Under the pieces are notes generated by a model. The model had not been told where the DNA came from. It saw only the letters and a list, made by a program, of their open reading frames with translations, and made no database searches. Shown one piece after another: positions 13,807-31,584 of a stretch of DNA of 61,395 bases. Origin of the DNA: Sphingobacteriales bacterium (GTDB taxonomy: Bacteria > Bacteroidota > Bacteroidia > Chitinophagales > Chitinophagaceae). The position numbers and the translations under genes are program-made. The DNA lies in the NCBI GenBank assembly GCA_900299255.1, contig OMJB01000122.1, positions 1 through 61,395 of the forward strand, in the 5' to 3' direction. Position 1 is the stretch's first letter, and each line of letters starts with the position of its first letter.

Positions 13807-15018
13807 TCATTGTGCCTTTGCACCTTTGCCAGCACTTATTTTTTCCGAGAACTTCAATAATACAAGTGTGATAATAAAACCCAGCAAACCTGCTACTACC
13901 GCCAGCGTGACGCTGCCGAAAACATATTGCTTAATATTCAGCTTGATAGCTTCCAGAGTGATGTTTTTACTGAAGATCAGCGAAACAGTATTGGCCGCTA
14001 CCCAGAACTTGCCAAACACAAAACTGAGAAACACTATGAGCGGAATCATGGGTGGTATGCTGATATTGGACGCAATCAGCGTAAGTGCCTTATTGAGCCT
14101 GAAAAGAGCCGCCAGCACAACCGCTATTGCCATCTGAAAACCCCACAGCGGCACGATACCCATAAATATGCCAAACCCTATTGAAGCTGATTTTTTTAAG
14201 TGCGATTCCTCTTTATTGAACAGGTTTTTGCGCAGCAGATCCTTCACGTTTTCAATCTTCGACATTTTGAGGATGAAATCGCGGGGTTTGATGTAGAGAA
14301 AGGCAACCAGCACCAGTATGGTGTTCAACACACTAATACGGGAAAAATCGGGGCCAGGGCGAAAATGGGATATTCGCTCCTCGCGGGGCGGATAGTACAC
14401 TGTAACGGGAATCCAACTGATCTTAATACCCTTCCATGCACAGCGAACCAGTACCTCCACCTCAAATTCATACCTTGTACCAAAGAAAATGACATTCTTC
14501 ATCAGGTACAGAGGGTATAAACGGTATCCTGATTGCGTATCTGGCGCCTTAAGCCCAGTCTCGACGTAAAACCAGAAATTAGAGAATTTATTGGCAAATG
14601 TGTTCTTGCCAGGCATATTCTCAGAATGGAGATTTCTGGATCCAATAACAACCGCTCGTTTTTCGGTATCGAGTGTAGCCAGAAATGCGGGTAGGTCTTT
14701 GGCGAAATGCTGGCCATCTGAGTCTATAGTGATGGTATAATCGTAACCCAGCTCTGTAGCCTTTTTGAAACCAATGCGCAGTGCCTTGCCTTTTCCTTTG
14801 TTGCGTGGATATTGTACCCGCACAATCTGAGGGAAGCCATCCAGAATGCCTGAAGTACCATCGGTGGAACCATCGTTTACCACAATAACCCTGTCGGTGT
14901 ATTCCAGCACAGAGCTAAGTACCTGCGCAAGCGTACCGGCATTGTTGTATGTGGGAACAATTACACAGGCATTGTGCCTCTCAAATAATTGCCGGTATTG
15001 GTTGTTCAGGTCTGACAA
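13807..15018 (-). CDS. GT2 glycosyltransferase with C-terminal DUF2062 membrane domain
   Basis: 403 residues. Residues about 15-240 are a family 2 glycosyltransferase (VIVPTYNNAGTL, VIVVNDGSTDGT, TITIDSDGQH as the DxD region). Residues about 270-400 form a DUF2062 domain with several membrane helices. The start is a TTG at 15018; an in-frame stop lies a few codons upstream and there is no ATG alternative before the conserved core. It probably transfers a sugar from a lipid or nucleotide donor to the module product. It leads the four-gene minus-strand operon. Confidence 0.85.
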   Translation of the reverse strand: MSDLNNQYRQLFERHNACVIVPTYNNAGTLAQVLSSVLEYTDRVIVVNDGSTDGTSGILDGFPQIVRVQYPRNKGKGKALRIGFKKATELGYDYTITIDSDGQHFAKDLPAFLATLDTEKRAVVIGSRNLHSENMPGKNTFANKFSNFWFYVETGLKAPDTQSGYRLYPLYLMKNVIFFGTRYEFEVEVLVRCAWKGIKISWIPVTVYYPPREERISHFRPGPDFSRISVLNTILVLVAFLYIKPRDFILKMSKIENVKDLLRKNLFNKEESHLKKSASIGFGIFMGIVPLWGFQMAIAVVLAALFRLNKALTLIASNISIPPMIPLIVFLSFVFGKFWVAANTVSLIFSKNITLEAIKLNIKQYVFGSVTLAVVAGLLGFIITLVLLKFSEKISAGKGAKAQ

Positions 15019-15573: not shown

Positions 15574-17262
15574 TTGGAACAGAAGAAACGAAGCTGGGGG
15601 AGGAAATTGCTGAGGGTTATCGGGTGGATAATGCTGGTGCTGCTGTTGCTAATAACGGGTTTGATTGTTTATGTAGTGAGTGTATCACATATAGACCCGC
15701 CAAAAATCGCTGACCAGTCGGCATTAAAACTAGAGCGGAAACAAATAGATTCCAACTGCTATGCGATAGGTAATAACTGGTTCAGGAAGAGTAAATCGGG
15801 ATTGTGGGAATTGTATGTACAGGGAGCACCGTTTGAACGGGGTGTGATTTGCGGCAAACTTACTGCCGAACTAGTAAAAAGGCAGGAGGATAACTTTACG
15901 GCCCAGATCAGGAAAATGATACCATCAGAGTCATACCTGAAGTTTCTGAAGTACTTTATTGGCTGGTTTAATCGCAACCTTGCCGACCATGTAAACGAAG
16001 AAAACAAGGAGGAGATTTACGGCATTTCTTTCTCGGCATCAGACGACTACGGATACATAGGCACTAAGTATGAGCGGCTGATGAACTACCACGCTGCCCA
16101 TGATATAGGGCATGCGCTGCAAAGCATGGCACTGGTGGGTTGCACTTCATTTGCCACATGGAACGGGAGGTCGGCAGACAGTTCGCTGATACTGGGCAGG
16201 AATTTTGATTTTTATGCGGGCGATAAATTTGCTGAGGACAAAATAGTGGCTTTTTACCACCCTGCGGCGGGATACAGATTTATGATGGTAACCTGGGCAG
16301 GCTTTACCGGAGTGGCATCGGGAATGAATGAACAGGGGCTGACAGTGACCATTAACGCTGATAAGACCAGTATACCTCCGGGCGCAGCAACCCCTGTATC
16401 GCTGGTGGCTAGGGAGATACTGCAGTATGCAAAGAATATTGACGAAGCCTGGGCTATAGCCAAGAAAAGGAAGATGTTTGTTTCTGAGTCGTTTCTGATA
16501 GGATCGGCGAATGACAACAAGGCTGTGGTGATAGAAAAGACGCCGGACAGCATGGATCTGTATGCATCGGACAATAACTTTATTACCTGCGCCAACCATT
16601 TTCAGGGAAAGCAACTGAGCAGGCTGGCATCGAATGAACAGCAGATGAAGGAAAGCGCGTCGCCATACAGATTTGAGCGGCTGAATGAACTGCTGGCGCG
16701 GAGCGGAGCCAACACTGTACAGAAAACAGTAGATATACTCAGAGACCGAGCAGGCGTACATGATGCCAATATTGGCATGGGTAATGAAAAAGCGATGAAC
16801 CAACTGATAGCTCACCACTCGGTGGTGTTTGAACCGAAGAAGCGGCTGGTGTGGGTTTCGACCCAGCCGTGGCAACTGGGGCAGTATGTGGCATATGACC
16901 TGAACAAAATTTTTGCAATGCACGGTCTGACAGGCAATACAGAGGTATGCGACAGTGCGCTTAATATTGCGGCAGATACATTCCTCCAATCCAAAGAATA
17001 CCAGAACTTTGTGGTATTCAGGCAGGTGAAACAGGATATAATGGATGGCAAGGACGCAGATGTGAAGAAAATGGTTCAGGCTAATCCGGAATTTTACAAT
17101 GCTTATGTGCTGGCGGGCGACTACGAATTCAAACACAGGCAGTATAGAGAAGCGAAGCATTACTATGAAGAGGCACTTACTAAGGTGATAGCCACATGGG
17201 GCGAAGAAGAAAAAGTGAGGAAGCAACTAAAGAAGATACAGGAAAAACATCTAGCAGATTAA
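15574..17262 (+). CDS. C45-type NTN hydrolase/acyltransferase with C-terminal TPR-like tail
   Basis: 562 residues. The TTG start at 15574 keeps a basic stretch (KKRSWGRK) before a signal anchor (about 15-36). The family is acyl-CoA:6-aminopenicillanate acyltransferase-like. The predicted self-cleavage nucleophile is Cys190 in ALVGCTSF, followed by LILGRNFDF. The last 60 residues (YNAYVLAGDYEFKHRQYREA) resemble one or two TPR helices. C45 proteins autocatalytically cleave and then form or break amides. They recur in flexirubin loci, role unknown. The gene is followed 11 bp later by the hydroxylase. Confidence 0.83.
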   Translation: MEQKKRSWGRKLLRVIGWIMLVLLLLITGLIVYVVSVSHIDPPKIADQSALKLERKQIDSNCYAIGNNWFRKSKSGLWELYVQGAPFERGVICGKLTAELVKRQEDNFTAQIRKMIPSESYLKFLKYFIGWFNRNLADHVNEENKEEIYGISFSASDDYGYIGTKYERLMNYHAAHDIGHALQSMALVGCTSFATWNGRSADSSLILGRNFDFYAGDKFAEDKIVAFYHPAAGYRFMMVTWAGFTGVASGMNEQGLTVTINADKTSIPPGAATPVSLVAREILQYAKNIDEAWAIAKKRKMFVSESFLIGSANDNKAVVIEKTPDSMDLYASDNNFITCANHFQGKQLSRLASNEQQMKESASPYRFERLNELLARSGANTVQKTVDILRDRAGVHDANIGMGNEKAMNQLIAHHSVVFEPKKRLVWVSTQPWQLGQYVAYDLNKIFAMHGLTGNTEVCDSALNIAADTFLQSKEYQNFVVFRQVKQDIMDGKDADVKKMVQANPEFYNAYVLAGDYEFKHRQYREAKHYYEEALTKVIATWGEEEKVRKQLKKIQEKHLAD

Positions 17263-17273
17263 TCTAGGGCAAA

Positions 17274-17768
17274 ATGAACTATTTGTGGAACGCGCTGGTG
17301 ATACTCTTTGCATTCGTGGGAATGGAGGGGGTGGCATGGGGGTTGCACAAATTTGTGATGCATGGATTCTTGTGGTGGGTGCATAAAGACCACCACATAC
17401 CGCACAACAAGAAATTTGAGCGCAACGATTTTTTTGCGTTGGTATTTGTGTTTCCTAGTTGGCTTTTTATGATGTATGGGATAATGGCTGGATGTGATTA
17501 CAGGCTGTACCTGGGCATAGGTATTACCCTGTATGGATTCTGTTATGTGATGATACATGAGGGGCTGATACACCGGCGTATAAAGGTGCTGGTAACCTCT
17601 AAGAATGTATACCTGCTGGGATTACGGCTGGGGCATTTGTCGCACCATGTGCATGATAAAAGCAAGAACCACAGAAAGGAGGACGATATATGCTACGGCA
17701 TGCTGTGGGTGCCGTACAGGTTCTTTAAAGAAGCAAGGGTGAAAGCTGCGGAGGGTGGTGAGCTTTAA
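17274..17768 (+). CDS. crtZ: CrtZ-like beta-carotene 3-hydroxylase
   Basis: 164 residues with about four membrane helices and the four histidine clusters of the non-haem di-iron hydroxylases: HKFVMH, HKDHH, HEGLIH (HDGLVH in typical CrtZ) and HLSHH. It adds a hydroxyl to the beta-ionone ring of carotenoids. It is probably co-transcribed with the C45 gene. A hydroxyl at this position is what a sulfotransferase or glycosyltransferase would need as an acceptor. Confidence 0.8.
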   Translation: MNYLWNALVILFAFVGMEGVAWGLHKFVMHGFLWWVHKDHHIPHNKKFERNDFFALVFVFPSWLFMMYGIMAGCDYRLYLGIGITLYGFCYVMIHEGLIHRRIKVLVTSKNVYLLGLRLGHLSHHVHDKSKNHRKEDDICYGMLWVPYRFFKEARVKAAEGGEL

Positions 17769-17965: not shown

Positions 17966-19432
17966 TTACTTAAACACCTTATCCAGAATCTTTGCGGAAT
18001 TGAGACAGAGGGGTATGCCGGCACCGGGGTGTACGCTGCCGCCTGCAAAGTAGAGGCCTTTGATTTTTCGGGAGAAATTGGGGTGGCGCTGAAAGGCTGA
18101 AAAGCGGTTATTGCTGCTGTTGCCGTAGACTGCACCAAACGCACTAGAGTACTTATTTAAGATGATCTTTGGTGTGAGGAATTCTTCGCAGACAATATGC
18201 TGCTCAATGTTGGTATGCAGCATACGGTTTATTTTATCTACAATCGATTTACGGGCCTCCTGCCTTATGGCGTCCCAATACTGGCCAGTGTCGTTGGGTG
18301 CTGTGACAAGCAGGAACCAGTTTTCGCAACCGGGAGGCGCATCTTCCGGAACATATTTTGAGCTGATAAACAGGTATATAGAAGGATCTGAACTAATAAC
18401 GCCTTTCTTAAAAACAACCTCATACTCTTCATTATCGTCAGCAGCAAAAAACAGATTGTGCAGATTCAACTCGGGATACGAACGGTTGATACCCCAGTAA
18501 AAACACAAGAGTGAGGTAGACTTGGGCTGTGCCAGAATACGCTCAGGCGCAGGCTGTGAACGCAATAGTTTGCGGTAGGTAAAGAACACATCCATGTTGC
18601 TGACAACCGCATCGTATGCGACCGTGGTACCATTGCGGAGCTTAACGCCGGTTACAGAGCCACCAGTTACACAGATTTCATCAACCGGAGTATTCAGATG
18701 AAATGTTACGCCCATCTCTTCGGCAAGTGCGGTAAGCGCCCTGACAATATCATACATCCCTTTTTCAGGGAGGAATACGCCGGTATTTAGCTCCAGGTGC
18801 TGAATCACATTGAGCGTAGCCGGTGTGGTAAGCGGATCTGAGCCAATATAAGTAGCATAGTTATTGAAAATCTGAATGACACGCTTGTCTTTAAAGAACC
18901 GGCGGTTCAGCTCGTTCATTGACTTAAACGAATCGATTTTATTGAAATTAAAAATACCCGAGATGAACTTTCTGGTAAAATAGTTACTGAGTACATGCAG
19001 CGAATTCTCAATAAACACACCACTTGTGATTTCGTACTTAACAGCTATGTCTTTCAAATACTTATTAAATACGGCCGGGGGCGTACCTGTTTTCTGTTTA
19101 AGTTCGGCAGCGAATTCGTTCAGGTCGGAGCAGGCATTAATGACACTGCCATCCTCAAAAAAATACCGAAAAGGATCTTTTACCGGTCTGTACCTGAAGT
19201 AATCTTTGGGATCTTTGCCGCACAGCGTGAATAGTTCATCGATAAGGCCCGGCAGCATAAAAACGCTGGGGCCCATATCGAACCGGTAGCCGTTTATGTG
19301 CTTTTCTGAAATTTTGCCACCCGGCGCACTGTTGGACTCGTATACATCGACTTTATAACCTCTGGCAGCAATGCGGATGGCGGCGGCCAAACCGGCTATA
19401 CCAGAACCAATAACAGCGCACTTCTTTCCCAT
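17966..19432 (-). CDS. CrtI/CrtD-family carotenoid desaturase
   Basis: 488 residues from the ATG at 19432 (MGKKCAVIGSGIAGLAAAIR). The ADP-binding fold is followed by the CrtI-type block YRFDMGPSVFMLPGLIDELF, and the C-terminal motif is GLYFAGGSVHPGAGIPL. The wording of the first block resembles 1-hydroxycarotenoid 3,4-desaturases (CrtD) more than phytoene desaturases, which in Bacteroidota usually read GPSWYWMP. If so, it takes part in a myxol/saproxanthin-like pathway and crtI lies outside the window. It stands alone, flanked on both sides by REP-like repeats. Confidence 0.83.
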   Translation of the reverse strand: MGKKCAVIGSGIAGLAAAIRIAARGYKVDVYESNSAPGGKISEKHINGYRFDMGPSVFMLPGLIDELFTLCGKDPKDYFRYRPVKDPFRYFFEDGSVINACSDLNEFAAELKQKTGTPPAVFNKYLKDIAVKYEITSGVFIENSLHVLSNYFTRKFISGIFNFNKIDSFKSMNELNRRFFKDKRVIQIFNNYATYIGSDPLTTPATLNVIQHLELNTGVFLPEKGMYDIVRALTALAEEMGVTFHLNTPVDEICVTGGSVTGVKLRNGTTVAYDAVVSNMDVFFTYRKLLRSQPAPERILAQPKSTSLLCFYWGINRSYPELNLHNLFFAADDNEEYEVVFKKGVISSDPSIYLFISSKYVPEDAPPGCENWFLLVTAPNDTGQYWDAIRQEARKSIVDKINRMLHTNIEQHIVCEEFLTPKIILNKYSSAFGAVYGNSSNNRFSAFQRHPNFSRKIKGLYFAGGSVHPGAGIPLCLNSAKILDKVFK

Positions 19433-19497
19433 TTGCGCCCAAATATACTGGCTACCCATCAACAATCAAATGATATAAGTTGGTTTATTACATTAGC

Positions 19498-19613: not shown

Positions 19614-19676
19614 AGGTAAAAAACCAAGGTTTGCCTGAACATTCGTTACAATATATACTCAAACTAACCGATCTGA

Positions 19677-20429
19677 ATGGAGGGCAAGGCTTGCATAAAA
19701 GTCAGGGAACTTTCGAAACAGTACAAAGGCAGCAGTTATCTGGCTGTAAATAAGTTGAGTTTTGAGATATATGAAGGTGAAATATTTGGTTTACTGGGGC
19801 CGAACGGCGCAGGCAAATCAACTTTTCTGTCGATGCTGTCGGGTTTGATCAAGCCAACCAGCGGAGAGGCTGAAATATTTGACCACAAACTTACCACTGA
19901 TACTGAGCTGCTTAAGAGAATTATAGGCGTGGTGCCGCAGGATATCGCATTGTACCCTACCCTTTCAGGGCGTGATAATCTGTTGTTTATAGGAAGAATG
20001 TATGGGCTGAGCGAAAAAGAACTGAAGGACACGGTGGACAAATACCTGAACCGGTTTGGGTTTGAAAAGAACGGGAGCAATGCAGTGAAAACATATTCCG
20101 GGGGCATGAAGCGCAGGATCAATCTGATAGGCGGCATGCTGCACAACCCTAAAATACTGCTGCTGGATGAACCAACTGTAGGTATGGATGTGCAGGCAAG
20201 GACAAGCACCATGGAGTTTCTGAATGAGGTGAATGAACAAACCAAAATGACAATCATCTACACATCGCATGATATGGAACAGGCCAATACATTCTGCGAC
20301 CGCGTAGGGATCATAGACAGAGGACAGATACTGAAACTGGGCACACCAGACGGACTGCCAGCCAGTGAAGGCTGCAAAGACCTGGAAACTCTATTTTTAA
20401 AACTTACCGGCAGAAAAATAAGGGACTGA
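19677..20429 (+). CDS. ABC transporter ATP-binding protein
   Basis: 250 residues with Walker A GPNGAGKST, signature YSGGMKRRINL, Walker B ILLLDEPTVG and switch His in TSHDME. It energises export with the ABC-2 permease encoded next; stop and start overlap as TGATG. It is the first gene of a tightly packed six-gene operon that continues with a carrier protein, condensation enzyme, oxidoreductase and ligase, so the exported molecule is probably the product of those enzymes. Confidence 0.93.
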   Translation: MEGKACIKVRELSKQYKGSSYLAVNKLSFEIYEGEIFGLLGPNGAGKSTFLSMLSGLIKPTSGEAEIFDHKLTTDTELLKRIIGVVPQDIALYPTLSGRDNLLFIGRMYGLSEKELKDTVDKYLNRFGFEKNGSNAVKTYSGGMKRRINLIGGMLHNPKILLLDEPTVGMDVQARTSTMEFLNEVNEQTKMTIIYTSHDMEQANTFCDRVGIIDRGQILKLGTPDGLPASEGCKDLETLFLKLTGRKIRD

Positions 20430-21700
20430 TGTACAGGCTGAAAGCGACATTTATTAAAGAATTCAAGCTGCTGTCGGTGGACAAAACAGGTATTACCATT
20501 CTGTTTATCATGCCGGTATTTCTTGTTTTTATTATGACGCTGATACAGCAGCAGGCCTATAAAAGCATGAGCCAGTCGGGGGTGCCGGTGCTGCTGGTAA
20601 ACAGAGACCGGGACAGCCTGGGTACTGCAGTGGAAAGAGGATTCAGCAACTTTCCGGTGGCACAGCTGACAGTAGACCACGGAGAGCGGTACCCGAATGA
20701 AGATGCCATACGGAAAGAGATAACCAACGGCAAATACACAGTCGCACTATACATACCTGCCAATGCCACAAAAATACTGGAACAGAATGTGGAGGAGATT
20801 ATGGGTAGAATGTTTAATAAAGGCCAGATAGCTAACAATACCAAAGTAGACATAGGCATCATAATAGACCCGACTGCTAACAAACCGATGGTTATAGCCA
20901 TAACCAGCAGGCTGAAGCAATACCTGGCCGATGTGAAAACAGGTGTACTCTTCAACATTATGGGCAGTAAAATAGCCGGAATGATGCATGCAGAAATAAA
21001 GGGAGGCATGCCTCAGGAAGACATATTCAGCTATAAAGAAAATTATGCGTTCAGGGATAACCGTAGCAGTTACCAGCCTGATGCAGTGCAACACAATATA
21101 CCTGCATGGGCCATCTTCTCTATATTTTTTATTGTACTGCCGCTGGGCGGGGGAATTATCAATGAGCGGTCGGAGGGATTGTTTATCAGAATGCGTACGC
21201 TACCAGGGTCTTACCTTTCACTGCTATCGGGCAAGCTGCTGGCGTATTTTTTTATTGCGCTTATACAGTTTCTGCTAGTGATATTGCTGGGCGTATATGT
21301 GCTGCCGCTGGTTGGGCTGCCGGTATTACATATCGGGTCGAACATAGTGCCGCTTGTATTACTTACCGTTGTGCTGGCTCTGGCTGCCGTGGGGTACGGA
21401 CTGTTTATAGGCACCCTGTTTGATACACCACAGCAATCGGCAGTTTTTGGCGGGATCAGCGTGCTGATTATGTCGGCGCTGGGAGGTATATGGGTTCCTA
21501 TGAACATAATGCCTGAGGTAATGCAAAAAATCAGCAGTTGCTCGCCACTTAACTGGGCGCTTAGAGGCTACTACGAATTATTTATAAAGGGTGGAGGCTG
21601 GCCGGCAATACAGACTGAAGTAATCAAATTATCAGTGTTCTTTATTGTATGTTTAGCAATATCGTACCGAATCTTCCAACACAAAACGAACACCAATTAG
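20429..21700 (+). CDS. ABC-2 type transporter permease
   Basis: 423 residues with the ABC-2 layout: one N-terminal helix (about 22-42), a large extracytoplasmic domain to about residue 220, then five helices to the C-terminus. It forms the membrane part of the exporter with the ATPase upstream. The carrier protein gene follows after 10 bp. Confidence 0.9.
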   Translation: MYRLKATFIKEFKLLSVDKTGITILFIMPVFLVFIMTLIQQQAYKSMSQSGVPVLLVNRDRDSLGTAVERGFSNFPVAQLTVDHGERYPNEDAIRKEITNGKYTVALYIPANATKILEQNVEEIMGRMFNKGQIANNTKVDIGIIIDPTANKPMVIAITSRLKQYLADVKTGVLFNIMGSKIAGMMHAEIKGGMPQEDIFSYKENYAFRDNRSSYQPDAVQHNIPAWAIFSIFFIVLPLGGGIINERSEGLFIRMRTLPGSYLSLLSGKLLAYFFIALIQFLLVILLGVYVLPLVGLPVLHIGSNIVPLVLLTVVLALAAVGYGLFIGTLFDTPQQSAVFGGISVLIMSALGGIWVPMNIMPEVMQKISSCSPLNWALRGYYELFIKGGGWPAIQTEVIKLSVFFIVCLAISYRIFQHKTNTN

Positions 21701-21710
21701 GCTATAGGGA

Positions 21711-21965
21711 ATGGGTAAAATAACAGAAGCGGCGGTTAGTGCCGAACTTAAAAAGCATATTTCTGATAACATAGTTGACCGGTCGGTTGCTGTGGAACCA
21801 GACCAGCCGTTGCGCGATCTTGGTTTTGACTCAGTGGCCATCATTGACCTCATATTGTTTATAGAGCGGAAATTTGGTGCAGCGATAGACGACAAAGACC
21901 TGGTACCCGAAAACCTGTACAGTATTAATACGCTTGCTAAATGCGCAATGAAGTACATTGACTGA
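21711..21965 (+). CDS. Acyl/peptidyl carrier protein
   Basis: 84 residues. The phosphopantetheine attachment serine is Ser41 in LGFDSVAIIDL. It begins 10 bp after the permease and ends 2 bp before the condensation gene. It is unlike the carrier at 4879 in sequence and sits with a C-domain-like protein and an adenylating ligase, so it is likely to act as the one-module carrier of this pathway. Confidence 0.87.
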   Translation: MGKITEAAVSAELKKHISDNIVDRSVAVEPDQPLRDLGFDSVAIIDLILFIERKFGAAIDDKDLVPENLYSINTLAKCAMKYID

Positions 21966-21967
21966 AC

Positions 21968-23245
21968 ATGAGGGCTGCCAATAAACAGGAGAAAATATAC
22001 CTTACGGGTGCCGATTGCTTCATTCTGGCGCTGGAGCTGCACAATAAGCATGCAGGTATTACCGGCAACACCTGCCGGTATGTGCTTGAAACTGAAGGCA
22101 GACTTGATGCCCGACAAATTGAAGACTTAATAAACAGCCAACCCGCGCTCCAGGAGCTATCATCGTTTACGCTCGGCAGGAGCATGATTTTCGGGCTGCC
22201 TTACTGGAAACAGGGAACACCCAAACGGATACCAGTTGAAGAATGGAACAGTGATGCGTTTATACCGGACGTTATACTTGAGCGCAACTTGTCGCTGGAA
22301 GGGGCTCAGTTATTTACATTTGATGTACTACACCGGAGTGAAGACCGGAGCGCACTCATATTCTCGTGGAACCATCTGATACTGGACAGCCAGGGAGCGG
22401 CACTGCTGCTGAGCAGGATACTGGTTGGAGAGAAAACCGGGCCTCTGACAACGGAGGAAAAAAAAGACAAATGGACAGTCGGAGGGATGATCAAGGGCTA
22501 TAAAGTGACCCGTTTTGTGAAAAGATCTGCCAGAAAGCCGCTCACGGGTGACTACAGTAATACGGGCAGCAAATATGTGCAACAGCAGATAGGCTGTGTA
22601 TCATTTGATGAATCAGAGACAAAGGCAATAGACGAGAATGTACTCAACAGTGGATCGAAGTTCGGGCCGAGTGCCTATCTGCTTACGTGCTGTGCACAGG
22701 AGATGATGCACTTTATGCAGCAAAAGCAGATGGCTGTGAGTAATTTCTGGGTACCAGTGCCCAGCAACAGACGCAAAAAAGGAGCCAAAGGCCCGTTATT
22801 GGGCAACCACCTGACTTTTCTGTTTTACAGGCTGGCCGGCAGCAAATTGGCATCTGCGCAAGAAAGCGTGGCCGACATCAATGATCAGATGATGCGGCAA
22901 ATGCGTAAGAAAATGCCTGACTATTATGAAGCACTGCTAAAAATAGTAAAAAGGGTGCCGCTGGTACTGTATTACAGCAGAATCAAAAAACCACAGGGCA
23001 AGTCAATATCCAGCTTTCTGTTTACACTGGCAGACGACCACCCTGCTGCATTGGAGCAGATAATGGGCATAAACGTAGAAAATGCGTGGAGTTTTCCGCC
23101 CAACATATATCCGCCGGGCATTACATTTGCCTTTATGCGGTTCAAAGGCATGCTGAGGGTCATGATACTTTCGTATCATGAGGTATTGAGTACGGACGAA
23201 ATGGAATTGTTTAAAAATGGCCTGAGGCAGAGGCTGCTGGGGTAA
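21968..23245 (+). CDS. Free-standing condensation-domain-like acyltransferase
   Basis: 425 residues, the size of a single NRPS condensation domain or a WS/DGAT-type acyltransferase. The active-site motif H-x3-D is in NHLILDSQG (His136, Asp140). Later blocks also fit the chloramphenicol-acetyltransferase-like fold (GNHLTFLFYRL, then ISSFLFTLADDHP). It would join the acyl group on the carrier to an amine or alcohol acceptor. There is no attached carrier or adenylation domain; those are separate genes in the same operon. The acceptor is unknown. Confidence 0.78.
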   Translation: MRAANKQEKIYLTGADCFILALELHNKHAGITGNTCRYVLETEGRLDARQIEDLINSQPALQELSSFTLGRSMIFGLPYWKQGTPKRIPVEEWNSDAFIPDVILERNLSLEGAQLFTFDVLHRSEDRSALIFSWNHLILDSQGAALLLSRILVGEKTGPLTTEEKKDKWTVGGMIKGYKVTRFVKRSARKPLTGDYSNTGSKYVQQQIGCVSFDESETKAIDENVLNSGSKFGPSAYLLTCCAQEMMHFMQQKQMAVSNFWVPVPSNRRKKGAKGPLLGNHLTFLFYRLAGSKLASAQESVADINDQMMRQMRKKMPDYYEALLKIVKRVPLVLYYSRIKKPQGKSISSFLFTLADDHPAALEQIMGINVENAWSFPPNIYPPGITFAFMRFKGMLRVMILSYHEVLSTDEMELFKNGLRQRLLG

Positions 23246-23254
23246 ATGTAATTG

Positions 23255-24508
23255 ATGAACAATCTGGATGCAGATATTGTAGTTGTGGGGGGCGGAGTGG
23301 CAGGATTTTCGGCCGCACTGGCTGCTGTGGCTGCAGGAAGGTCTGTGATACTAGTGGAACGGCAACAGATGCTGGGTGGCAATGCTACCCAATCAAATGT
23401 GGGCACCATATGCGGTGCCTACTACAGGTCATTGACAGGACCTGCTGTTTTTGCGGGGCATACATTCGGATTGAATTTGATAAACGAACTTACAGATGCG
23501 GGTATATGCAGCGAACCCTTCATGCACCATAACGGGCTGTATGTACTGCATTACCACTGGCGCCAGTTTCATACGTATCTGGAATCAAAACTTGCGCAGG
23601 CCGGTGTTAGCGTGCTGCTGCAAACAGAGGTGCGAGAAGTAAACAGAACGGGCAACAAAATAACCCACCTGGTAACAGCATCTAACAATACCAAGACGAA
23701 AATATCCGGAGGGGCATTTATTGACTGTTCAGGAAATGCCATCTTATCGCGGCTGGCAAATGCAGCAGTTATCTCTACGGGCAATTATCAGGCGGCATCG
23801 CAGGTATTCAGGGTTGGGGGCATTGATGGCGACAATGAATTTACTGTGAATATGTCGCTGAAACGGTTGATCAGCAAATTAGTTACTGAAAAGAGTTTCC
23901 CGGAAAGTTACCGGTCCATCAGCATCATTCCCGGCTCGCTGGAAAACGGAGCAGCAGACATTAAATTTACACTTCCAGACAAAATAAGTGATGACACTGC
24001 GCTGCAGCAAATACTTACTGAAAAGTCGAAGAATTATGTGCAGGAGCTATTTGATTGCATTCAACACAATTCAAGCACTTTCAGGAAAGCAGAGATTGAA
24101 ACTATATTTCCGATGCCGGGAATAAGGACCCAGCAACGCTCAAAAGGAAAATATGTACTAACAGGCAGCGATGTACTTGCCTGCCGCAAGTTTGAGCACT
24201 ATGCAGCTGTTGGGACATGGCCCATAGAGGAATGGTTTAGCAATGGGGAACTGACCCTGGAGTATTTTGGTGAGGACAACTGCTATCAAATCCCGGCTGA
24301 ATGCTTGACATCGTGCGAAATTGAAAACCTGTACTTTGCCGGAAAGAACATAAGCGCTGATGACAAAGCAATAGCCAGTGCCAGAGTTATAGGCACCTGC
24401 CTGCAGACAGGCTATGCTGCAGGAAAATTGGCCGCCTGCCCTGGCCCGGATGCCATGCAGGGAATTTTACATGAACTACAACAAGATCTGGTTGCCCACC
24501 ATGCATAA
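23255..24508 (+). CDS. FAD-dependent oxidoreductase
   Basis: 417 residues from the ATG at 23255 (a TTG just before it is less likely). The N-terminus has a dinucleotide fold, DIVVVGGGVAGFSAALAA, then LVERQQMLGGNATQSNVG, typical of the FAD_oxidored group. The C-terminus has NLYFAGKNISADDKAIASAR, the second FAD-contact block. It probably oxidises the carrier-bound or released product. It is placed between the condensation enzyme and the ligase and overlaps the ligase start by 8 nt. Confidence 0.82.
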   Translation: MNNLDADIVVVGGGVAGFSAALAAVAAGRSVILVERQQMLGGNATQSNVGTICGAYYRSLTGPAVFAGHTFGLNLINELTDAGICSEPFMHHNGLYVLHYHWRQFHTYLESKLAQAGVSVLLQTEVREVNRTGNKITHLVTASNNTKTKISGGAFIDCSGNAILSRLANAAVISTGNYQAASQVFRVGGIDGDNEFTVNMSLKRLISKLVTEKSFPESYRSISIIPGSLENGAADIKFTLPDKISDDTALQQILTEKSKNYVQELFDCIQHNSSTFRKAEIETIFPMPGIRTQQRSKGKYVLTGSDVLACRKFEHYAAVGTWPIEEWFSNGELTLEYFGEDNCYQIPAECLTSCEIENLYFAGKNISADDKAIASARVIGTCLQTGYAAGKLAACPGPDAMQGILHELQQDLVAHHA

Positions 24509-25937
24509 TTTGTTCGACATATTGAAGAGGTCGGCAGAGCGGTGGCCTGACCAGCTGGCAGTAAGCGATGTATACGGAACCATTACGTTTGCGGAACTAT
24601 ATGAACAGGCCTGCACGCTGAAGAAATACTTTGCAGCACAAGGTGTGCAACCGGGCACAGGGGCTGCTATCATATTTGGAAACAACAGGTATTTTATCAT
24701 TTCACTGTTTGCGGTAGTAGGATGCGGAGCCGTGGTAATGCCGGTTTCACCTCAGCTCAAGGAGGCAGAAATAAAGAACGCTATCAGTGAGGGAGCCATG
24801 CACTTTGTGTTTTTGGAGAGGAGCATATCTTATTTGCAGCACGCTCCTTTGGAGCCGTGCCAGTTACTACCCGAGGCAATTTACGGCAGAAGGACGGAGC
24901 GGGCTCTGAGCCAAAAAACGGTGGAGATTGGCGAAGATCCGGCATTTATCAGGTTTACTTCCGGCACTACCGGAAAATCAAAAGGCGTAGTTATCTCACA
25001 CAAATCAGTAAAGGAGCGGGTTGATGCCGCCAATGAAGGACTTTGCCTCAATGAAACAGATAGAGTAGTATGGGTATTGCCAATGGCCTACCATTTTGTA
25101 GTTTCAATTGTGCTTTACATAAAATACGGCGCAGGAATCATTGTTAATGATGTTTTTCTGGCAGACGATATTCTGAAGAGCATAAAGGATTACGGAGGAA
25201 CTTTTTTGTATGCTGCACCCATGCACATAAGACTGCTGGCAGCTCACAAGGAACAGATGCATCTGCCCACTCTGAAAAAAGTAATTTCTACAACAACGAG
25301 TATCAGTGAGGAAGTATGCAGGGAATTTAAGGCCAGGTACAATGTGCCAGTTAGCCAGGCTTATGGCATTATTGAGATAGGTTTACCCATTATCAATCTG
25401 GCTAAATCAGACGATCAGCCGGGGGCACTGGGCTATGCATTGCCTGCATACACAACCGGAATTCTCAATGAACAATACGCAGAGCTGCCAGACGGAGTGG
25501 CTGGAAAACTGGGTATTAAGGGACCAGGCATGTTTGATGCTTATCTGTCGCCAGCCAGGAGGCGGGAGGAGGTATTGTGCAAAGGGTGGTTCCTTACCGG
25601 AGACCTCGCTTTTAAGCAGCCAGATGGCCTCATAGTGCTGCAGGGCCGCGAAAAAAACATGATCAATGTATCGGGCAACAAAGTATTTCCGAATGAAGTG
25701 GAAGATGTGGTTAACAATTTCCCGGGGGTGATACAATCGAGGGCATACAGTAAAACACACAGGCTGATGGGCGAAGTGGTAGCTCTGGACATAGTAACAG
25801 AACGAGATTCAACAATCGATGACGAAGCACTTATAACTTACTGCAAACAATACCTGGCCAATTTTAAAGTACCACAGTTTATATACCGGGTGCAGGAAAT
25901 AGCAATGACTGGAAGCGGGAAAGTGAAGCGCAACTGA
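24501..25937 (+). CDS. AMP-forming acyl/aryl-acid ligase
   Basis: 478 residues from the ATG at 24501, which overlaps the oxidoreductase stop by 8 nt; upstream in-frame starts at 24471 and 24414 are possible but sit deep in the previous gene. Adenylate-forming motifs are FTSGTTGKSKGVV (about 152-164), YGIIEIGLP, GWFLTGDLAF and the C-terminal catalytic Lys region TGSGKVKRN. It activates a carboxylic acid and loads it on the carrier at 21711. I cannot assign the acid. The downstream sulfotransferase converges with only 2 bp between stop codons. Confidence 0.87.
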   Translation: MHNLFDILKRSAERWPDQLAVSDVYGTITFAELYEQACTLKKYFAAQGVQPGTGAAIIFGNNRYFIISLFAVVGCGAVVMPVSPQLKEAEIKNAISEGAMHFVFLERSISYLQHAPLEPCQLLPEAIYGRRTERALSQKTVEIGEDPAFIRFTSGTTGKSKGVVISHKSVKERVDAANEGLCLNETDRVVWVLPMAYHFVVSIVLYIKYGAGIIVNDVFLADDILKSIKDYGGTFLYAAPMHIRLLAAHKEQMHLPTLKKVISTTTSISEEVCREFKARYNVPVSQAYGIIEIGLPIINLAKSDDQPGALGYALPAYTTGILNEQYAELPDGVAGKLGIKGPGMFDAYLSPARRREEVLCKGWFLTGDLAFKQPDGLIVLQGREKNMINVSGNKVFPNEVEDVVNNFPGVIQSRAYSKTHRLMGEVVALDIVTERDSTIDDEALITYCKQYLANFKVPQFIYRVQEIAMTGSGKVKRN

Positions 25938-25939: not shown

Positions 25940-27076
25940 CTAGCCTTTTGGGTAGCCATAAGCATCGAACATGAAGCCCCACTCATTTGCAATCCTTTTT
26001 CTGGTGGCGTCGTCTGGTGATTTGTAAGCGTTGGTTTTGTAACCAGCAGTACTGTTTACCTCTGCTTTAAAATGCGGCGCAGCGTGGCTGAAACCGTCAA
26101 TACCCAAGTGCTGATAGATGCGCTCCACCTGCCCCATAGGATCTGCTACCAGGGCATCGTAAGATATCTCTACCAATTGTGAGGAAGCGACAGATTTTCT
26201 ATCCGCCAGGAATTTTTCATAAATTTTCCGATAGGAGTAAAAAATGAAGTCATCTATTTCCTTATTGTCAGCTTTCTGAAAACTCAGAATAGGAAGAATC
26301 TTTTCGTAAAGGTTAACATTGGAAAGGTAAACCGCATGAGGATCACGGTGGATATGGATAAACACAGCATCCGGGTATAACGAAAGTAACTCCTTCATTC
26401 TGCCGGTGTTGGACGGACTCTTCAGCACCAGGCGCTTACCTTTATTTATAAACGAAAGTTTTTTCAGCAGATAACCGAAATTGGTTCTCCATTCGTCCAT
26501 TAATGCAGGAGAGGCTGTTTCGAAAGTGACAACGTCGTTAAATACTGATCTGATACTGTGCGGGAAATAATAACTGTGTGTAAACGAAACACCGCACATA
26601 TTTCCCATAGCGAACTCTTCTTCAATAGGCATCTCAGCACCGGACTTCACATTGTCCTGAGGGCGGGTGGCAGGCATAAACTTACCCAGCATACGACGAA
26701 AAATACCACCCCCAAGCAGGAACTGGTTCGGTATTAAAGCCTGAAACGTAGAACAGAAAGCGAGATTGGGATCGCGGGCAAGCAAATTGTGCAGATAAGT
26801 AGTGCCGCTGCGATGATGGCCCAGAATAAAAATTGGCCGCTCCACTTTTGTTTTGCTGATACGGGAGTGAAACAGCCACCGCTCTAAAAAGTAAACAGGC
26901 GCGAAAAAAAGAGTATTGACCGTAATGAAAAAAGCCTTGAGCCAAAATGCAGGAGCGATGCTAAACTTATTACGGGCGAGCAACCTGATCCAGCTGGTAA
27001 AATTGATGCCGAATACGGTATTGGAGAATAAATTAATATAATCCTTTCTTTTGTACTGAATGTTCATTACGGGCAT
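25940..27076 (-). CDS. Membrane-associated sulfotransferase
   Basis: 378 residues from the ATG at 27076. The PAPS 5'-phosphosulfate loop is FILGHHRSGTTYLHNLLA and the 3'-phosphate block is LVLKSPSNTGRMKELL followed by VFIHIHRDPHAVYLSN, as in the Sulfotransfer_3 group. An N-terminal hydrophobic stretch (FWLKAFFITVNTLFFAPVYF) suggests membrane attachment and a lipophilic acceptor. It transfers sulfate from PAPS. The gene for a PAPS-forming kinase lies 3.6 kb away on the same strand, with crtB between. The acceptor is not known. Confidence 0.85.
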   Translation of the reverse strand: MPVMNIQYKRKDYINLFSNTVFGINFTSWIRLLARNKFSIAPAFWLKAFFITVNTLFFAPVYFLERWLFHSRISKTKVERPIFILGHHRSGTTYLHNLLARDPNLAFCSTFQALIPNQFLLGGGIFRRMLGKFMPATRPQDNVKSGAEMPIEEEFAMGNMCGVSFTHSYYFPHSIRSVFNDVVTFETASPALMDEWRTNFGYLLKKLSFINKGKRLVLKSPSNTGRMKELLSLYPDAVFIHIHRDPHAVYLSNVNLYEKILPILSFQKADNKEIDDFIFYSYRKIYEKFLADRKSVASSQLVEISYDALVADPMGQVERIYQHLGIDGFSHAAPHFKAEVNSTAGYKTNAYKSPDDATRKRIANEWGFMFDAYGYPKG

Positions 27077-27121
27077 GCCCTTATTGAGTGTCAAATATAG
27101 TTAATAATTATCAGGGCATCG

Positions 27122-27152
27122 TTCGCAAAACATGCCTGTATCTATATCTTTG
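27122..27152 (+). promoter_or_regulatory. Promoter for the DUF5686-type gene
   Basis: TTCG (27122-27125), exactly 19 nt, TATCTTTG (27145-27152). Its position inside the longest reading frame argues against the upstream GTG start at 27088. Confidence 0.55.
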
Positions 27153-27159
27153 GTGCATC

Positions 27160-29679
27160 TTGGCAATACTATCCAACACAGGGCAACCATTTAGATTCAG
27201 CATTTTGCTGCTGACCGCGGCGATATTGGTATCGTTTACATCTGCTGCACAAAGTGTAACCATAAAAGGAAAAGTGGTGGAGAAAGGCAGCGGAGATGCC
27301 TTGCCGTATACCCATGTTTTTATTAAAGGCACCAATGTAGGTACTACCTCAGATACCGATGGGTCATTCATACTGACCTATGATAAAGGGGCGGTAAAGA
27401 GTGATTCTTTGTTTGTTTCTTACCTGGGATATAGCACCTATAAGACAGTTCTGGCAGGGATAAAAGAAGAGCTGCTTGTGACACTTGCACCGGATATGTT
27501 TGAGATGAGTGAATTTGTTATCAGGCCCGGAGAGAACCCTGCATGGGCGATACTGCGGCACGCTATAGCCAATAAAAAAGATAACGACATTAAATCCTCT
27601 AAAGCTTACAGATGTGAGGAGTATTCTAAGATCAGATTTGATCTAAATCACTTTACAGAGAAGATCAAAAAAAATCTGCTGCTGAAACCGTTTGACTATA
27701 TTTGGGCAAACGTTGATACTACACAAGAGGGCGTAACATTTCTGCCTGTGCTGATTGTTGAGAAATTCATCAGGCATTATAACCGCGTAAACCCTGAGGG
27801 AACTACCGATGAACTACTGGCTACTAAAACCTCTGGCCTTGCAGGGCCAAAACTGATGGCTTTTGTACAGGATCTGTATCAGGCTCCTGATTTTTATAAC
27901 GACTATGTGGTGATACTGGATAAGAACTTCCCGGGGCCACTGAACGAAAATTATAAGAACAACTACAAATTTCACCTGACAGACAGCATGACGGGAGCAA
28001 CCGGCAAGGTTTACAAAATAACCTTTAAACCTAAACAAAGGCACGGCCTGGCATTTACGGGAGATATGATGATTGACTCAACCACTGGCGGGCTCAAAGA
28101 AATCAATGTGCGGTTTGATATACTGGCAAATATCAATTTCGTCAGAAGCTTTTTTATACACCAGGAATATGAACTTTTAAACGGCAAAGACTGGGTAGTC
28201 AGCGCATCTAATGTGCTGGGCGACTTTACCGTGATCGAAAACTCCAGTGATCTTACCGGATTTTTTGGACGAAAGAATTCAACATTCAAGAACTATGAAA
28301 TAGGTGCCGGCACACCAAATGAACTACTTAGGCTGCATACCCGCGAGACGGAGGCAGACAGTGCAAGCAGCCGGAGTGAAGCCTACTGGGAACAGGCTCG
28401 TTACAACGAACTGACACAACCAGATAAAGAAGTATTCAAAATGTCGAACAGGCTGGAAAAGGATCGGGCATTCCTTTTCAGGAAAAATCTGATTGTGGCT
28501 GTAGCTACTGGGTACTACCACATAAAATACGTTGATATCGGAAACCTGTTTACGTTTTACAGTCACAACCCGGTAGAAGGAGACAGGTATAAATTAGGGC
28601 TAAAAACGTCGGATAAGACGGTACCTTTCCTTTCTCTGGGTGGATATGGTGCTTATGGCATGAAGGATGAACAATGGAAATACGCCGCCAGCGGCGAGCT
28701 GCACCTTAGCCGTAAAAAATACCCCAGATTGTATTTTGGAGCCAACTACAGGTACGACGTAGAGCAGATAGGCAGGAGTTTTAATGCACTGCCGACAGAC
28801 CATGTTATTTCGTCGCTGATACAGGTAGGCAAGGCTGATGCATCTTGGAATTATATAACAGAAGGGAATGTTTACATAGAGCGAATGTTGCTGCCGGGGC
28901 TGGTATTACGGGCGGGGCATTTTAATACTATCTATTCACCAACAGCGGGCTTTCAATACCAATATAAAAGCGGAATTATTCCGCAAAGCAAAGATCATTA
29001 TGAAGCAGACGGGCTAACCGCTACTCTGAAATATAGCAACCAGAATAAGGGGCTGAGAGGTGAATTTTATGATCAGGATGGATGGAAGAAGAATTTCAGC
29101 AAGTTCCCGGAAGTATCGGTTCAGTACAAATATGCAGACAATGCCCTGACCGGTTCAGAACAAAGTTTTCAGAAGCTGAAGATGTCGTTTAAACAGCAGA
29201 TACGGGCAAAAAAACTAGGGTACTTTCAATATTTTATTGAAGCCGGAAGAACATCTGGAGTGGTTCCCCACCCCTTCCTGGATTATCCCTCAGGCAATCA
29301 ACTGGTATTGAACAACGACTATGCGTTCAATCTGTTGAAGTTCATGGAATATGTGTCGGACGAGTATGTAAGCGTTCATCTGGCACACCACTTTGAAGGG
29401 CTGGGGCTTGACAGAATACCCTACGTGAACAAACTAAAATGGCGGAGTTTTGTGTTTGCAAGAGCTTACTTTGGCAAGTTAAGCGATGCGAATAAACAAT
29501 CGGTCTTTGTTCTTCCCAGTGGTGTAAAAATTGCTAATGGCCCATACTACGAGGCAGGTTTCGGGTTTGAGAATATTTTTAAGATTGCCCGTATAGACTT
29601 TGTTTGGCGGCTTACCGACAGAAACACACCTGATGTGTACTATTTTCTGATAAAGCCATCCTTCAACCTGAGCCTGTAA
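27160..29679 (+). CDS. Outer-membrane protein with carboxypeptidase-like regulatory domain (DUF5686 type)
   Basis: 839 residues from a TTG at 27160; a GTG at 27088 would give 863 but lies before the promoter. No ATG is available. The N-terminus is a signal peptide ending SFTSAAQS, then a CarboxypepD_reg-like domain (TIKGKVVEKGSGDALPYTHV, VGTTSDTDGSFIL), then a long beta-rich region ending in NLSL with a terminal hydrophobic residue, as in outer-membrane barrels. In this family the role is not established. It may be the outer-membrane component for the pathway around it. Confidence 0.78.
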   Translation: MAILSNTGQPFRFSILLLTAAILVSFTSAAQSVTIKGKVVEKGSGDALPYTHVFIKGTNVGTTSDTDGSFILTYDKGAVKSDSLFVSYLGYSTYKTVLAGIKEELLVTLAPDMFEMSEFVIRPGENPAWAILRHAIANKKDNDIKSSKAYRCEEYSKIRFDLNHFTEKIKKNLLLKPFDYIWANVDTTQEGVTFLPVLIVEKFIRHYNRVNPEGTTDELLATKTSGLAGPKLMAFVQDLYQAPDFYNDYVVILDKNFPGPLNENYKNNYKFHLTDSMTGATGKVYKITFKPKQRHGLAFTGDMMIDSTTGGLKEINVRFDILANINFVRSFFIHQEYELLNGKDWVVSASNVLGDFTVIENSSDLTGFFGRKNSTFKNYEIGAGTPNELLRLHTRETEADSASSRSEAYWEQARYNELTQPDKEVFKMSNRLEKDRAFLFRKNLIVAVATGYYHIKYVDIGNLFTFYSHNPVEGDRYKLGLKTSDKTVPFLSLGGYGAYGMKDEQWKYAASGELHLSRKKYPRLYFGANYRYDVEQIGRSFNALPTDHVISSLIQVGKADASWNYITEGNVYIERMLLPGLVLRAGHFNTIYSPTAGFQYQYKSGIIPQSKDHYEADGLTATLKYSNQNKGLRGEFYDQDGWKKNFSKFPEVSVQYKYADNALTGSEQSFQKLKMSFKQQIRAKKLGYFQYFIEAGRTSGVVPHPFLDYPSGNQLVLNNDYAFNLLKFMEYVSDEYVSVHLAHHFEGLGLDRIPYVNKLKWRSFVFARAYFGKLSDANKQSVFVLPSGVKIANGPYYEAGFGFENIFKIARIDFVWRLTDRNTPDVYYFLIKPSFNLSL

Positions 29680-29682: not shown

Positions 29683-30519
29683 TCAAAGCATACCGAATGC
29701 ATACCTGATCCAGGCAAAAGCCATGAGGGTGAATTTTCGGAAATCAGATATTCGTATCCTTTTATGAAAAATAGCCTCAACAGGTATATGCTTTATTTTA
29801 CGGTATAAATTGAGGTAGTATATGTATGCCAGATACACGCCAAAACGAGCTTTCCGGGGGAGCATGATAATGCCTGAGCGGGCATCGGCAAAGTCCCTAT
29901 CAATATCTGCCTCTATTTCGCGTTTGTCTCTCGCTTTAAAAGACTCAAAATTGAGGTTAGGAAAGTACACCCTGCCCAGATCTTTATAGTCGGCACTCAA
30001 GTCGCGCAAGAAATTTACTTTCTGAAAAGCCGCTCCCAGTTTCATGGCAGATGGCCTAAGGCGTTCATACAGCGCTTTATCATTTCCGGAAAAAACATGC
30101 AGGCAAATGAGCCCAACCGATTCGGCAGAACCCAGAATGTAGTGCTTATAAGATTCTTCAGAATGTTCCTGGACGTCGAGGTCGGCCTCCATGCTTTTCA
30201 GAAACGTTTTAATCAATTCTTTGTCAATTGAATATTGGTTCACAACGTTTTGAAAACTGTTAAGAATAGGATTCAGGCTGATGCCTCGTTCAATAGCTTT
30301 CCAGGTATCAGCCTCAAATTCATTGAATAGCTCCCTTTTATTGTATTGATGAAAAGAGTCTACAATTTCATCTGCAAATCTGACAAATCCATATATAGCA
30401 TAAATGGGATTATGCATCGAACGGTGAAGGCAATTAATGCCCAACGAAAAGCTAGTACTATATGCTTTTGTGGTGAGCTTGCTTGACCTGATGGATATGT
30501 TGTCAAAAAGTTCCTTCAT
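29683..30519 (-). CDS. crtB: Phytoene synthase
   Basis: 278 residues, squalene/phytoene synthase family. The two Mg-diphosphate motifs are visible: DEIVD (Asp50-Asp54) in VRFADEIVDSF and DLSAD in FLRDLSADYKDLGRVYFP. It condenses two geranylgeranyl diphosphates into phytoene, the first step to carotenoids. It converges on the DUF5686-type gene with 3 bp between stops. It follows the APS kinase on the same strand with a 183-bp gap that has no gene. Confidence 0.92.
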   Translation of the reverse strand: MKELFDNISIRSSKLTTKAYSTSFSLGINCLHRSMHNPIYAIYGFVRFADEIVDSFHQYNKRELFNEFEADTWKAIERGISLNPILNSFQNVVNQYSIDKELIKTFLKSMEADLDVQEHSEESYKHYILGSAESVGLICLHVFSGNDKALYERLRPSAMKLGAAFQKVNFLRDLSADYKDLGRVYFPNLNFESFKARDKREIEADIDRDFADARSGIIMLPRKARFGVYLAYIYYLNLYRKIKHIPVEAIFHKRIRISDFRKFTLMAFAWIRYAFGML

Positions 30520-30702: not shown

Positions 30703-31584
30703 TTATACTGCGGAAACACTGCGTATTTGACCAGCAGCCTGCAAAAAAGAAACAATTTCGTTCAGGCAATCTTCCACTGCGGTATTATCTGTACGTACAT
30801 GCACTTCGGGCATAGTAGGAATCTCGTAAGGACTGCTAACACCTGTAAAATCTTTTATCTTGCCTGCCTCGGCCAATTTATACAGGCCTTTGGTGTCACG
30901 GCTTTTACAGGTAGCCAGGCTTGCATCAACATAGACTTCAATGAAGTTCGTATTCCCGATAATGTGCCTGGCACCGGCCCTGTCATCTCCAAATGGGGCA
31001 ATAAAAGAAGCAATTACGATTGAGCCGGAATCGTTGATCAGTTTACTCACCTGCGCTACCCTCCTGATATTTTCTTTCCTGTCTTCACTGGAAAAAGAGA
31101 GGTCACTGTTCAAACCCAGCCTTGTATTATCGCCGTCTAGTACAAAGGCTCTCATGCGCTGCTCATAAAACCAAGCTTCCAGCGCTTTGGCAATAGTAGA
31201 TTTGCCGGAACCTGAAAGCCCAGTTAGCCAAATTGTGTAAGCCTTATGCCCATTCAGCAGTTCCCTCTGCGTACGGTTAATGAGGTCGTGCTGTGCAAAC
31301 AGCTTGCCTTCATTGTCCTGCTTGATCTTATTGGCTTTTGAGGTTCTTGTAGGCAAACCAAAGGTGATTCTGTGCCAAACACGCTCATGAACGAAGTAAA
31401 AAACCATTTTTGTTATCAGCTCTAACGCCCCAATCTGCGCACCAACCGATACCTGCCCGGTAACAAACCAACCTAGAAAAAGTGTATCCAAAGACCCCAG
31501 GACGCGCCATGATACCGATTTTACCAGATGGCGTTTAATGGTGGGGTCGGAAACGAATACATTCTTGAAAAGGTCAAGTACCAT
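30703..31584 (-). CDS. cysC: DUF2061-adenylylsulfate kinase fusion
   Basis: 293 residues. Residues about 15-80 are a DUF2061 domain with two membrane segments (VKSVSWRVLGSLDTLFLGWF, then ITKMVFYFVHERVWHRI). Residues about 110-285 are an APS kinase with P-loop GLSGSGKST and the signature VLDGDNTRLGLNSDLSFS. It phosphorylates APS to PAPS, the donor used by sulfotransferases. No ATP sulfurylase (cysDN) or PAPS reductase is adjacent, which favours a role in sulfation rather than cysteine synthesis. The membrane domain would place PAPS synthesis near the membrane-bound sulfotransferase. Confidence 0.9.
   Translation of the reverse strand: MVLDLFKNVFVSDPTIKRHLVKSVSWRVLGSLDTLFLGWFVTGQVSVGAQIGALELITKMVFYFVHERVWHRITFGLPTRTSKANKIKQDNEGKLFAQHDLINRTQRELLNGHKAYTIWLTGLSGSGKSTIAKALEAWFYEQRMRAFVLDGDNTRLGLNSDLSFSSEDRKENIRRVAQVSKLINDSGSIVIASFIAPFGDDRAGARHIIGNTNFIEVYVDASLATCKSRDTKGLYKLAEAGKIKDFTGVSSPYEIPTMPEVHVRTDNTAVEDCLNEIVSFLQAAGQIRSVSAV

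Follow-up and report, generated by a model that had tools for sequence, protein, structure and literature searches.

Linkage of a discrete carrier and condensation-type acyltransferase with a CrtD-family desaturase and a sulfotransferase suggests an undescribed decorated pigment in scattered Bacteroidota

We analyzed a 61,395-nucleotide stretch of DNA, hereafter the window, which is contig OMJB01000122.1 (positions 1 to 61,395) of a Sphingobacteriales bacterium (assembly GCA_900299255.1). At 19677-25937 it carries six genes, A to F, that encode the two parts of an ATP-binding cassette (ABC) transporter, a carrier protein, a free-standing condensation-type acyltransferase, a flavin adenine dinucleotide (FAD)-dependent oxidoreductase, and an acyl ligase. 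In scattered Bacteroidota the core of this set, carrier C and acyltransferase D, is linked with a CrtD-family desaturase and a sulfotransferase, which suggests an undescribed decorated pigment. Our preferred reading, to which we give slightly less than an even chance, is that discrete proteins, acting in trans, form a one-module acyl-transfer line for the decoration of a carotenoid-type pigment.

The six open reading frames (ORFs) are intact, uninterrupted and on the same strand. An earlier note, made from the letters of the sequence, had described them as one operon whose genes overlap or lie within 10 bp of each other, and with gaps of -1, 10, 2, 9 and -8 bp this description holds. Start codons were picked by comparison with the homologous locus of a same-genus genome (L010); by mechanical choice of the first start, E would begin at 23252 (TTG) and F at 24414, in both cases further upstream. 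The family assignments of the note, including that of a condensation-domain-like enzyme, were likewise borne out, by Pfam matches for A, B, C, E and F and by profile for D. As the note had also stated, each domain is a separate protein, and the family scan matched no ketosynthase or thioesterase model in any of the six. A promoter-like match at 19631-19659 precedes A, although the region's total of such matches, 12 compared to 13.4 in shuffled sequences, is not in excess. For the carrier, our pattern caught the DS motif in 12 of 19 sequences, and the remaining printed stretches, together with that of L044, have DS by eye. Ligase F retains the TSGTTGKSKG loop and the terminal Lys in its alignment. 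The nearest solved ligases (LgrA and the malonyl-, oxalate-, feruloyl- and 4-chlorobenzoyl-CoA ligases) do not separate its possible substrates, and the His in its LPMAYH stretch, by what is known of adenylation domains, may speak against an amino acid. A search with the F alignment at 1e-70 returned nothing, which is an effect of the threshold. Matches of E in the PDB extend little beyond its FAD-binding end, and an AlphaFold2 model of E from a two-row alignment (window and L010) had a mean predicted local distance difference test score (pLDDT) of 29.5.

Protein D by itself gave no Pfam or NCBIfam match at 0.01. However, a profile of 23 relatives matched condensation domains of nonribosomal peptide synthetases (NRPSs) in the PDB, the best being bacitracin synthase 3 (whole-sequence E 2.2e-7), and the relatives had weak Pfam matches (E up to 1) to Condensation (14, best 1.7e-4), Transferase (8) and WS_DGAT_C (4). 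Aligned by hhalign to a profile of 19 Bacteroidota condensation domains (from 20 loci, minus one shorter than 380 residues), D scored 97.6% (E 3.3e-12, 360 columns) and the HxxxD motifs of the two profiles lined up; control comparisons with four unrelated families reached 0.1-0.2%. Seven residues, D16, H136, D140, N280, Q307, Q311 and P383, are invariant among the 23 relatives, and they include the His and Asp of the catalytic HxxxD (H136 and D140). HxxxDxxG is present in 22 of the 23, while the canonical HHxxxDG is whole in none. Because of the profile match, the weak Pfam matches, the invariant HxxxD and the lack of a whole HHxxxDG, D is, by its sequence, a condensation/CAT-superfamily acyltransferase that keeps its catalytic residues and is not a canonical condensation domain. 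An AlphaFold2 model of D from the same kind of two-row alignment had a mean pLDDT of 32.6.

Relatives of D were found in 3 of 60 near genomes and in 27 of the 395 class genomes searched, these 27 falling in 10 genera; the window's own genome is included in both counts. A scan of genome contigs with D returned one locus, L010. To the window, L010 and L011 we added 26 loci from the class sample, making 29 D loci. Among these, the carrier was present at 24, CrtD at 18, the sulfotransferase at 18, E at 15, a DUF5686 gene at 14 and F at 9, while a flavin halogenase-like gene (7), a CrtZ-like gene (5), the ABC pair (4), an adenosine 5'-phosphosulfate (APS) kinase (2) and a second CrtB (2) were rarer. 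Absences in this count are uncertain because we set the match thresholds ourselves and contig ends cut the stretches. The complete order A to F, with CrtD and a CrtZ-like gene in front, recurs in L010 at 78-90% identity and in L040 and L041, from two congeneric genomes that belong to another family, at 43-64%. A lack of synteny elsewhere, which the earlier note had named as a refutation, is not what we see, and its placement of the set among carotenoid genes is supported by CrtD at 18 of the 29 loci. The six genes as the unit were not supported, given the counts for the ABC pair, the ligase and the FAD enzyme. The unit must be redrawn, since the core travels with CrtD, the sulfotransferase and DUF5686, all outside the coordinates of the six; the last two, its most constant extra partners, sit just beyond 19677-25937.

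With the same queries and thresholds, we looked at 20 CrtD loci of D-negative genomes. D, carrier, E, F, sulfotransferase and DUF5686 were each present at 0 of 20, as were the halogenase-like gene, the ABC pair and the APS kinase; the CrtZ-like gene was found at 8 and CrtB at 3. Another method agreed for D and the sulfotransferase and gave a weak DUF5686 likeness at two of these loci. A chance neighborhood was dropped as an explanation, given these zeros and the recurrence of the gene order in other genomes.

The sulfotransferase follows D beyond the locus. At 1e-30 its profile matched all 27 class-sample genomes with D but 13 of the 368 without it; 26 of the 27 matches were better than 1e-120 (that of G307 is a contig-end fragment), and the best D-negative match was at 1.4e-101. 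Query rows came from 10 of the 27; the remaining 17 of 17 match as well. In 10 of the 27 genomes the sulfotransferase lies on a contig other than that of D, so that more than linkage is at work. The motif GHxRSGTT is invariant in 10 of 10 sequences and RxPxxVxxS is kept; we take these to be the loop that binds 3'-phosphoadenosine 5'-phosphosulfate (PAPS) and the 3'-phosphate motif, respectively. It is possible that the APS kinase at 30703 supplies PAPS to this enzyme. That DUF2061-APS kinase fusion is 84% identical in L010 and was unseen at the other D loci.

The desaturase that diverges from the operon was tried as an ordinary CrtI and this was dropped, since it reaches the NCBIfam CrtD model NF042421 (514.6 bits, cut-off 500). 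At 1e-80, CrtD was found in 25 of 27 D-positive compared to 149 of 368 D-negative genomes of the class sample, and in the two exceptions, G243 and G297, the CrtD near D is truncated. The hydratase CruF (PF04240), the usual partner of CrtD, was found in only five of the 29 genomes with D, compared to all 20 D-negative controls. In the window's own genome there was no CruF match at 0.001; the other hydratase, CrtC, was not searched. Four of the five CruF-bearing D-positive genomes (G079, G112, G192 and G322) have two CrtD genes, and the fifth, G307, has one, on a contig other than that of D. Because they are incomplete (60-78%), an absent CruF or tyrosine ammonia-lyase may be a gap in G254, G322, G307, G297, G209 and G281. 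In a tree of 42 CrtD and 7 CrtI sequences, which left out the D-linked CrtD of G112, G296 and G067 and truncated copies and whose bootstrap was still unsettled, 24 copies, namely those from CruF-positive genomes without D as a neighbor, are all found to one side of a single branch. The CruF pattern, and weakly the tree, suggests that the D-linked CrtD has changed its substrate. Contig C88 of the same genome has a CrtI-type desaturase, a phytoene synthase, a CrtZ-like gene and a PF18916 lycopene cyclase, and because of these genes it is likely that the organism makes a carotenoid, a candidate acceptor, apart from the operon locus. The CrtB and CrtZ-like genes of the window are thus second copies in the genome. 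Two family scans (Pfam and NCBIfam) gave no family for the latter, which we presume to be CrtZ from its HKxVMHG stretch and from the presence of its homologues at carotenoid loci.

According to our preferred reading, F would activate a carboxylic acid and load it onto carrier C. E, or the flavin halogenase-like enzyme in some other species, would oxidize or otherwise tailor the acyl group, which D would then transfer to a hydroxyl of the acceptor; we infer an ester rather than an amide. As acceptor we envisage a molecule of xanthophyll type, on which the divergent CrtD-family desaturase would have acted without CruF. The sulfotransferase would add sulfate, perhaps using PAPS from the kinase at 30703, and DUF5686, which is probably an outer-membrane protein, and, in a few lineages, the ABC-2 pair would place or export the product. 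Of the seven loci with a halogenase-like gene, five are without E and two have it. WxWxIP is kept in all seven printed halogenase-like proteins, one of which comes from a tyrosine ammonia-lyase locus, and the two that were compared with the PDB are nearest PltA, an uncharacterized flavoprotein, other FADH2 halogenases, ChlB4 and CmlS. We consider it unlikely that every part of a fuller picture is right, namely an undescribed pigment class of CruF-free carotenoids, made with a CrtD of changed role, esterified by a free-standing condensation enzyme with an acyl group that is perhaps tyrosine-derived, oxidized or halogenated, and sulfated by a pathway-tied sulfotransferase; this would amount to NRPS-like chemistry that couples an acyl group to an isoprenoid pigment.

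Several observations weigh against a carotenoid-decorating line. At 11 of the 29 D loci CrtD was not seen; the absences at L042, L047, L063 and L065 may be due to contig ends, but hardly those at L011, L046, L051, L054, L059, L060 and L064. At 20 of 29, F was not seen, so the carrier there must be loaded by some other route if the F gene is not elsewhere. In G012 neither carrier nor pigment genes lie within ~9 kb of D on either side; its homologue (L011, 9029-10315) is 42% identical to D of the window. A phylum sample of uncertain design had D at 1e-10 in 1 of 395 genomes, the window's own; 371 of these 395 passed the quality mark, compared to 339 of 395 in the class sample. We chose the 20 control loci manually among CrtD-positive genomes so as to spread them over families. 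The Fisher tests on co-occurrence ignore relatedness, and because the genomes are related, their values overstate independence. Support is weak (53/67) for the branch between the CruF-linked and the D-linked forms of CrtD, and the roles of all members are predictions from their genes.

Two further findings count against a carotenoid acceptor and make an aryl-polyene product the main rival. An ammonia-lyase of the flexirubin type (above 550 bits, or a strong fragment in the case of G297) is present in 26 of 29 genomes with D, compared to two of the 20 controls (G304 and G370); lower-scoring ammonia-lyases (about 230-370 bits) look like histidine ammonia-lyases. The block at 4873-15018 of the window, which encodes a carrier, an LpxL-type acyltransferase, a polysaccharide deacetylase, LolA, a CrtI-like FAD enzyme, an MMPL fusion and a glycosyltransferase 2 with DUF2062, is like the export part of flexirubin clusters, to judge from the available part of the account of flxP-flxU in Chitinophaga pinensis (PMC3992019); a ketosynthase was found in none of the ten proteins scanned there. 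In such a pathway, an aryl or aryl-polyene acyl group, begun from tyrosine by the ammonia-lyase, would be carried on C, the alcohol to which D transfers it would not be dialkylresorcinol, and the CrtD-family enzyme would act on the polyene or be a mere neighbor. Many D-positive genomes have loci that read tyrosine ammonia-lyase (TAL), ketoreductase, ketosynthase, carrier and LpxL-type acyltransferase, and the window's own genome has TAL and a ketoreductase on contig C90, away from the operon. Halogenase-like genes occur at both D and TAL loci. Furthermore, in L082, L086 and L087, all of one genus, CrtD adjoins an aromatic ammonia-lyase, a ketoreductase, a ketosynthase, a carrier and an LpxL-type gene. 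These copies were tried as the D-linked kind of CrtD and dropped, since their genomes have CruF and their place in the tree is on the canonical side (support 53/67); being of the CruF-positive kind, they also argue against an aryl polyene. So does the position of D, which in 20 TAL stretches was in no case reported beside TAL other than by distance, while at 18 of 29 loci it adjoins CrtD. G370 has TAL and several ketosynthases without D, G113 (98% complete) has D with a lower-scoring ammonia-lyase only, and 3 of the 26 D-positive genomes and 1 of the 2 controls supplied rows of the ammonia-lyase query. We regard the aryl-polyene explanation as a serious one that is nonetheless improbable on balance. 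As a separate observation, the MMPL gene of the block (9907-13779, minus strand) encodes a 1290-aa fusion of an MMPL exporter, an acyltransferase and a methyltransferase, whose homologues adjoin TAL in other genomes.

Two other explanations leave pigments aside, and we consider both of them quite unlikely. D might modify a lipid or other envelope molecule, with common ancestry and envelope location rather than a common product behind the co-occurrence. D is on its own in G012 and is separated from CrtD in G101 and in the genomes of L046, L051 and L054, DUF5686 is probably an outer-membrane protein, and the sampled genomes are related, all of which would fit; yet the co-occurrence spans 10 genera, the sulfotransferase co-occurs even from another contig, and CruF loss follows D. 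Slightly less credible still is a counterpart of the Oaa pathway of Coprococcus eutactus, producing a small signal of the N-acyl amide (or acyl ester) type beside pigment genes that are mere neighbors. The three discrete protein types of that pathway, OaaA, OaaACP and OaaC, are matched here, as far as the available part of the Oaa report goes (PMC13142362), D matches the NRPS condensation domains that usually form amides, and ABC export is present at four loci. However, this would leave the linkage and co-occurrence with CrtD and the sulfotransferase unexplained, F is absent from 20 of 29 stretches, and HHxxxDG is found in none of the 23 D relatives aligned.

The logic of a module built from separate proteins, which the earlier note had stressed, is present in the window but not unprecedented. 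As described in the part of PMC13142362 at hand, the Oaa fatty acid amide pathway likewise has an AMP-forming adenylation protein (ligase), a carrier and a free-standing condensation enzyme as separate proteins, in a set without ketosynthase or thioesterase. In the window the same three stand side by side, with the ligase at 9 of 29 D loci. Relative to Oaa, the window adds the FAD enzyme, the CrtD-family desaturase, the sulfotransferase and DUF5686, has HxxxDxxG rather than HHxxxDG, belongs to loci at which the ligase is often unseen, and probably uses an acceptor that is no small amine. The dichloroacetyl genes of chloramphenicol, as presented in the available part of PMC4249514, similarly group a ligase (CmlK), a carrier (CmlM) and a flavin halogenase (CmlS) to prepare an acyl group, and the halogenase-like genes at seven D loci resemble PltA, ChlB4 and CmlS; unlike that set, the window has a PF12831 enzyme, no halogenase match and no NRPS adenylation partner.

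The flx cluster of C. pinensis, from the same phylum, shares with this genome tyrosine ammonia-lyase, acyl ligase, acyltransferase, LolA and exporter types, whereas a condensation-type enzyme, a sulfotransferase and CrtD are not named for it in the accessible portion of PMC3992019; TAL and ketosynthase genes also occur without D, in G370. From what could be consulted of PMC10784355, the CruF-CrtD monocyclic carotenoid pathway of the phylum (flexixanthin, Algoriphagus) has a CrtD-family desaturase with CrtB, CrtZ and cyclase types, as here, but in 24 of 29 D-positive genomes CruF was not found, and the carrier-acyltransferase pair and the sulfotransferase are added. Sulfated carotenoids do exist in bacteria: Erythrobacter, of another phylum, makes zeaxanthin, caloxanthin and nostoxanthin sulfates, with a sulfation gene called unexplored and no acylation described in the part of PMC6627997 available, where an HSO4- fragment at m/z 97 is reported for carotenoid sulfates.

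The earlier note had named membership of the set in a described cluster as a refutation; we found no description of the set in the open-licence PMC literature. For discrete ligase, carrier and condensation proteins as a set there is a precedent, which weighs on the significance of the finding; the pigment-linked form is new. If the preferred reading is true, carrier-protein and condensation-enzyme chemistry decorates isoprenoid pigments, of which no case was found in the same literature, the sulfotransferase is a candidate gene for carotenoid sulfation, and there is a form of CrtD that works without CruF. The co-occurring carrier, D, CrtD form and sulfotransferase make a short list for heterologous tests.

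Table 1. Features of the operon locus, with family matches and occurrence
Feature	Coordinates	Strand	Evidence
A, ABC transporter ATPase	19677-20429	+	PF00005 8.7e-34; 4/29 D loci
B, ABC-2 permease	20429-21700	+	PF12698 4.9e-38; 4/29 D loci
C, carrier protein, DS motif (GFDSV)	21711-21965	+	PF00550 6e-8; 24/29 D loci
D, free-standing condensation/CAT-superfamily acyltransferase	21968-23245	+	hhalign 97.6%, 3.3e-12; H136 and D140 invariant 23/23
E, FAD-dependent oxidoreductase	23255-24508	+	FAD_oxidored PF12831 3.7e-67; 15/29 D loci
F, AMP-forming acyl ligase with C-terminal domain	24501-25937	+	PF00501 2e-56; 9/29 D loci
CrtZ-like hydroxylase	17274-17768	+	homologues at 5/29 D loci, 8/20 control CrtD loci
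CrtD-family desaturase, divergent from operon	17966-19465	-	NF042421 514.6 bits (cut-off 500); 18/29 D loci
PAPS-type sulfotransferase (Sulfotransfer_3), convergent	25940-27094	-	PF13469 2.2e-35; 27/27 D-positive genomes
DUF5686 protein with CarboxypepD_reg domain	27088-29679	+	PF18939 4.9e-44; 14/29 D loci
Second phytoene synthase (CrtB)	29683-30519		second copy beside fuller set on contig C88
DUF2061-APS kinase fusion	30703-31584	-	PF01583 1.5e-61; 2/29 D loci

On the CrtZ-like side, L010 has a Por_Secre_tail protein (3332-4198) between the CrtZ-like gene and CrtD, and the ORF list of the window has no ORF that matches its size at that spot. A protein of 562 aa encoded at 15574-17262 (plus strand) contains the acyl-CoA:6-aminopenicillanic-acid acyltransferase domain (PF03417) and is 95% identical in L010.

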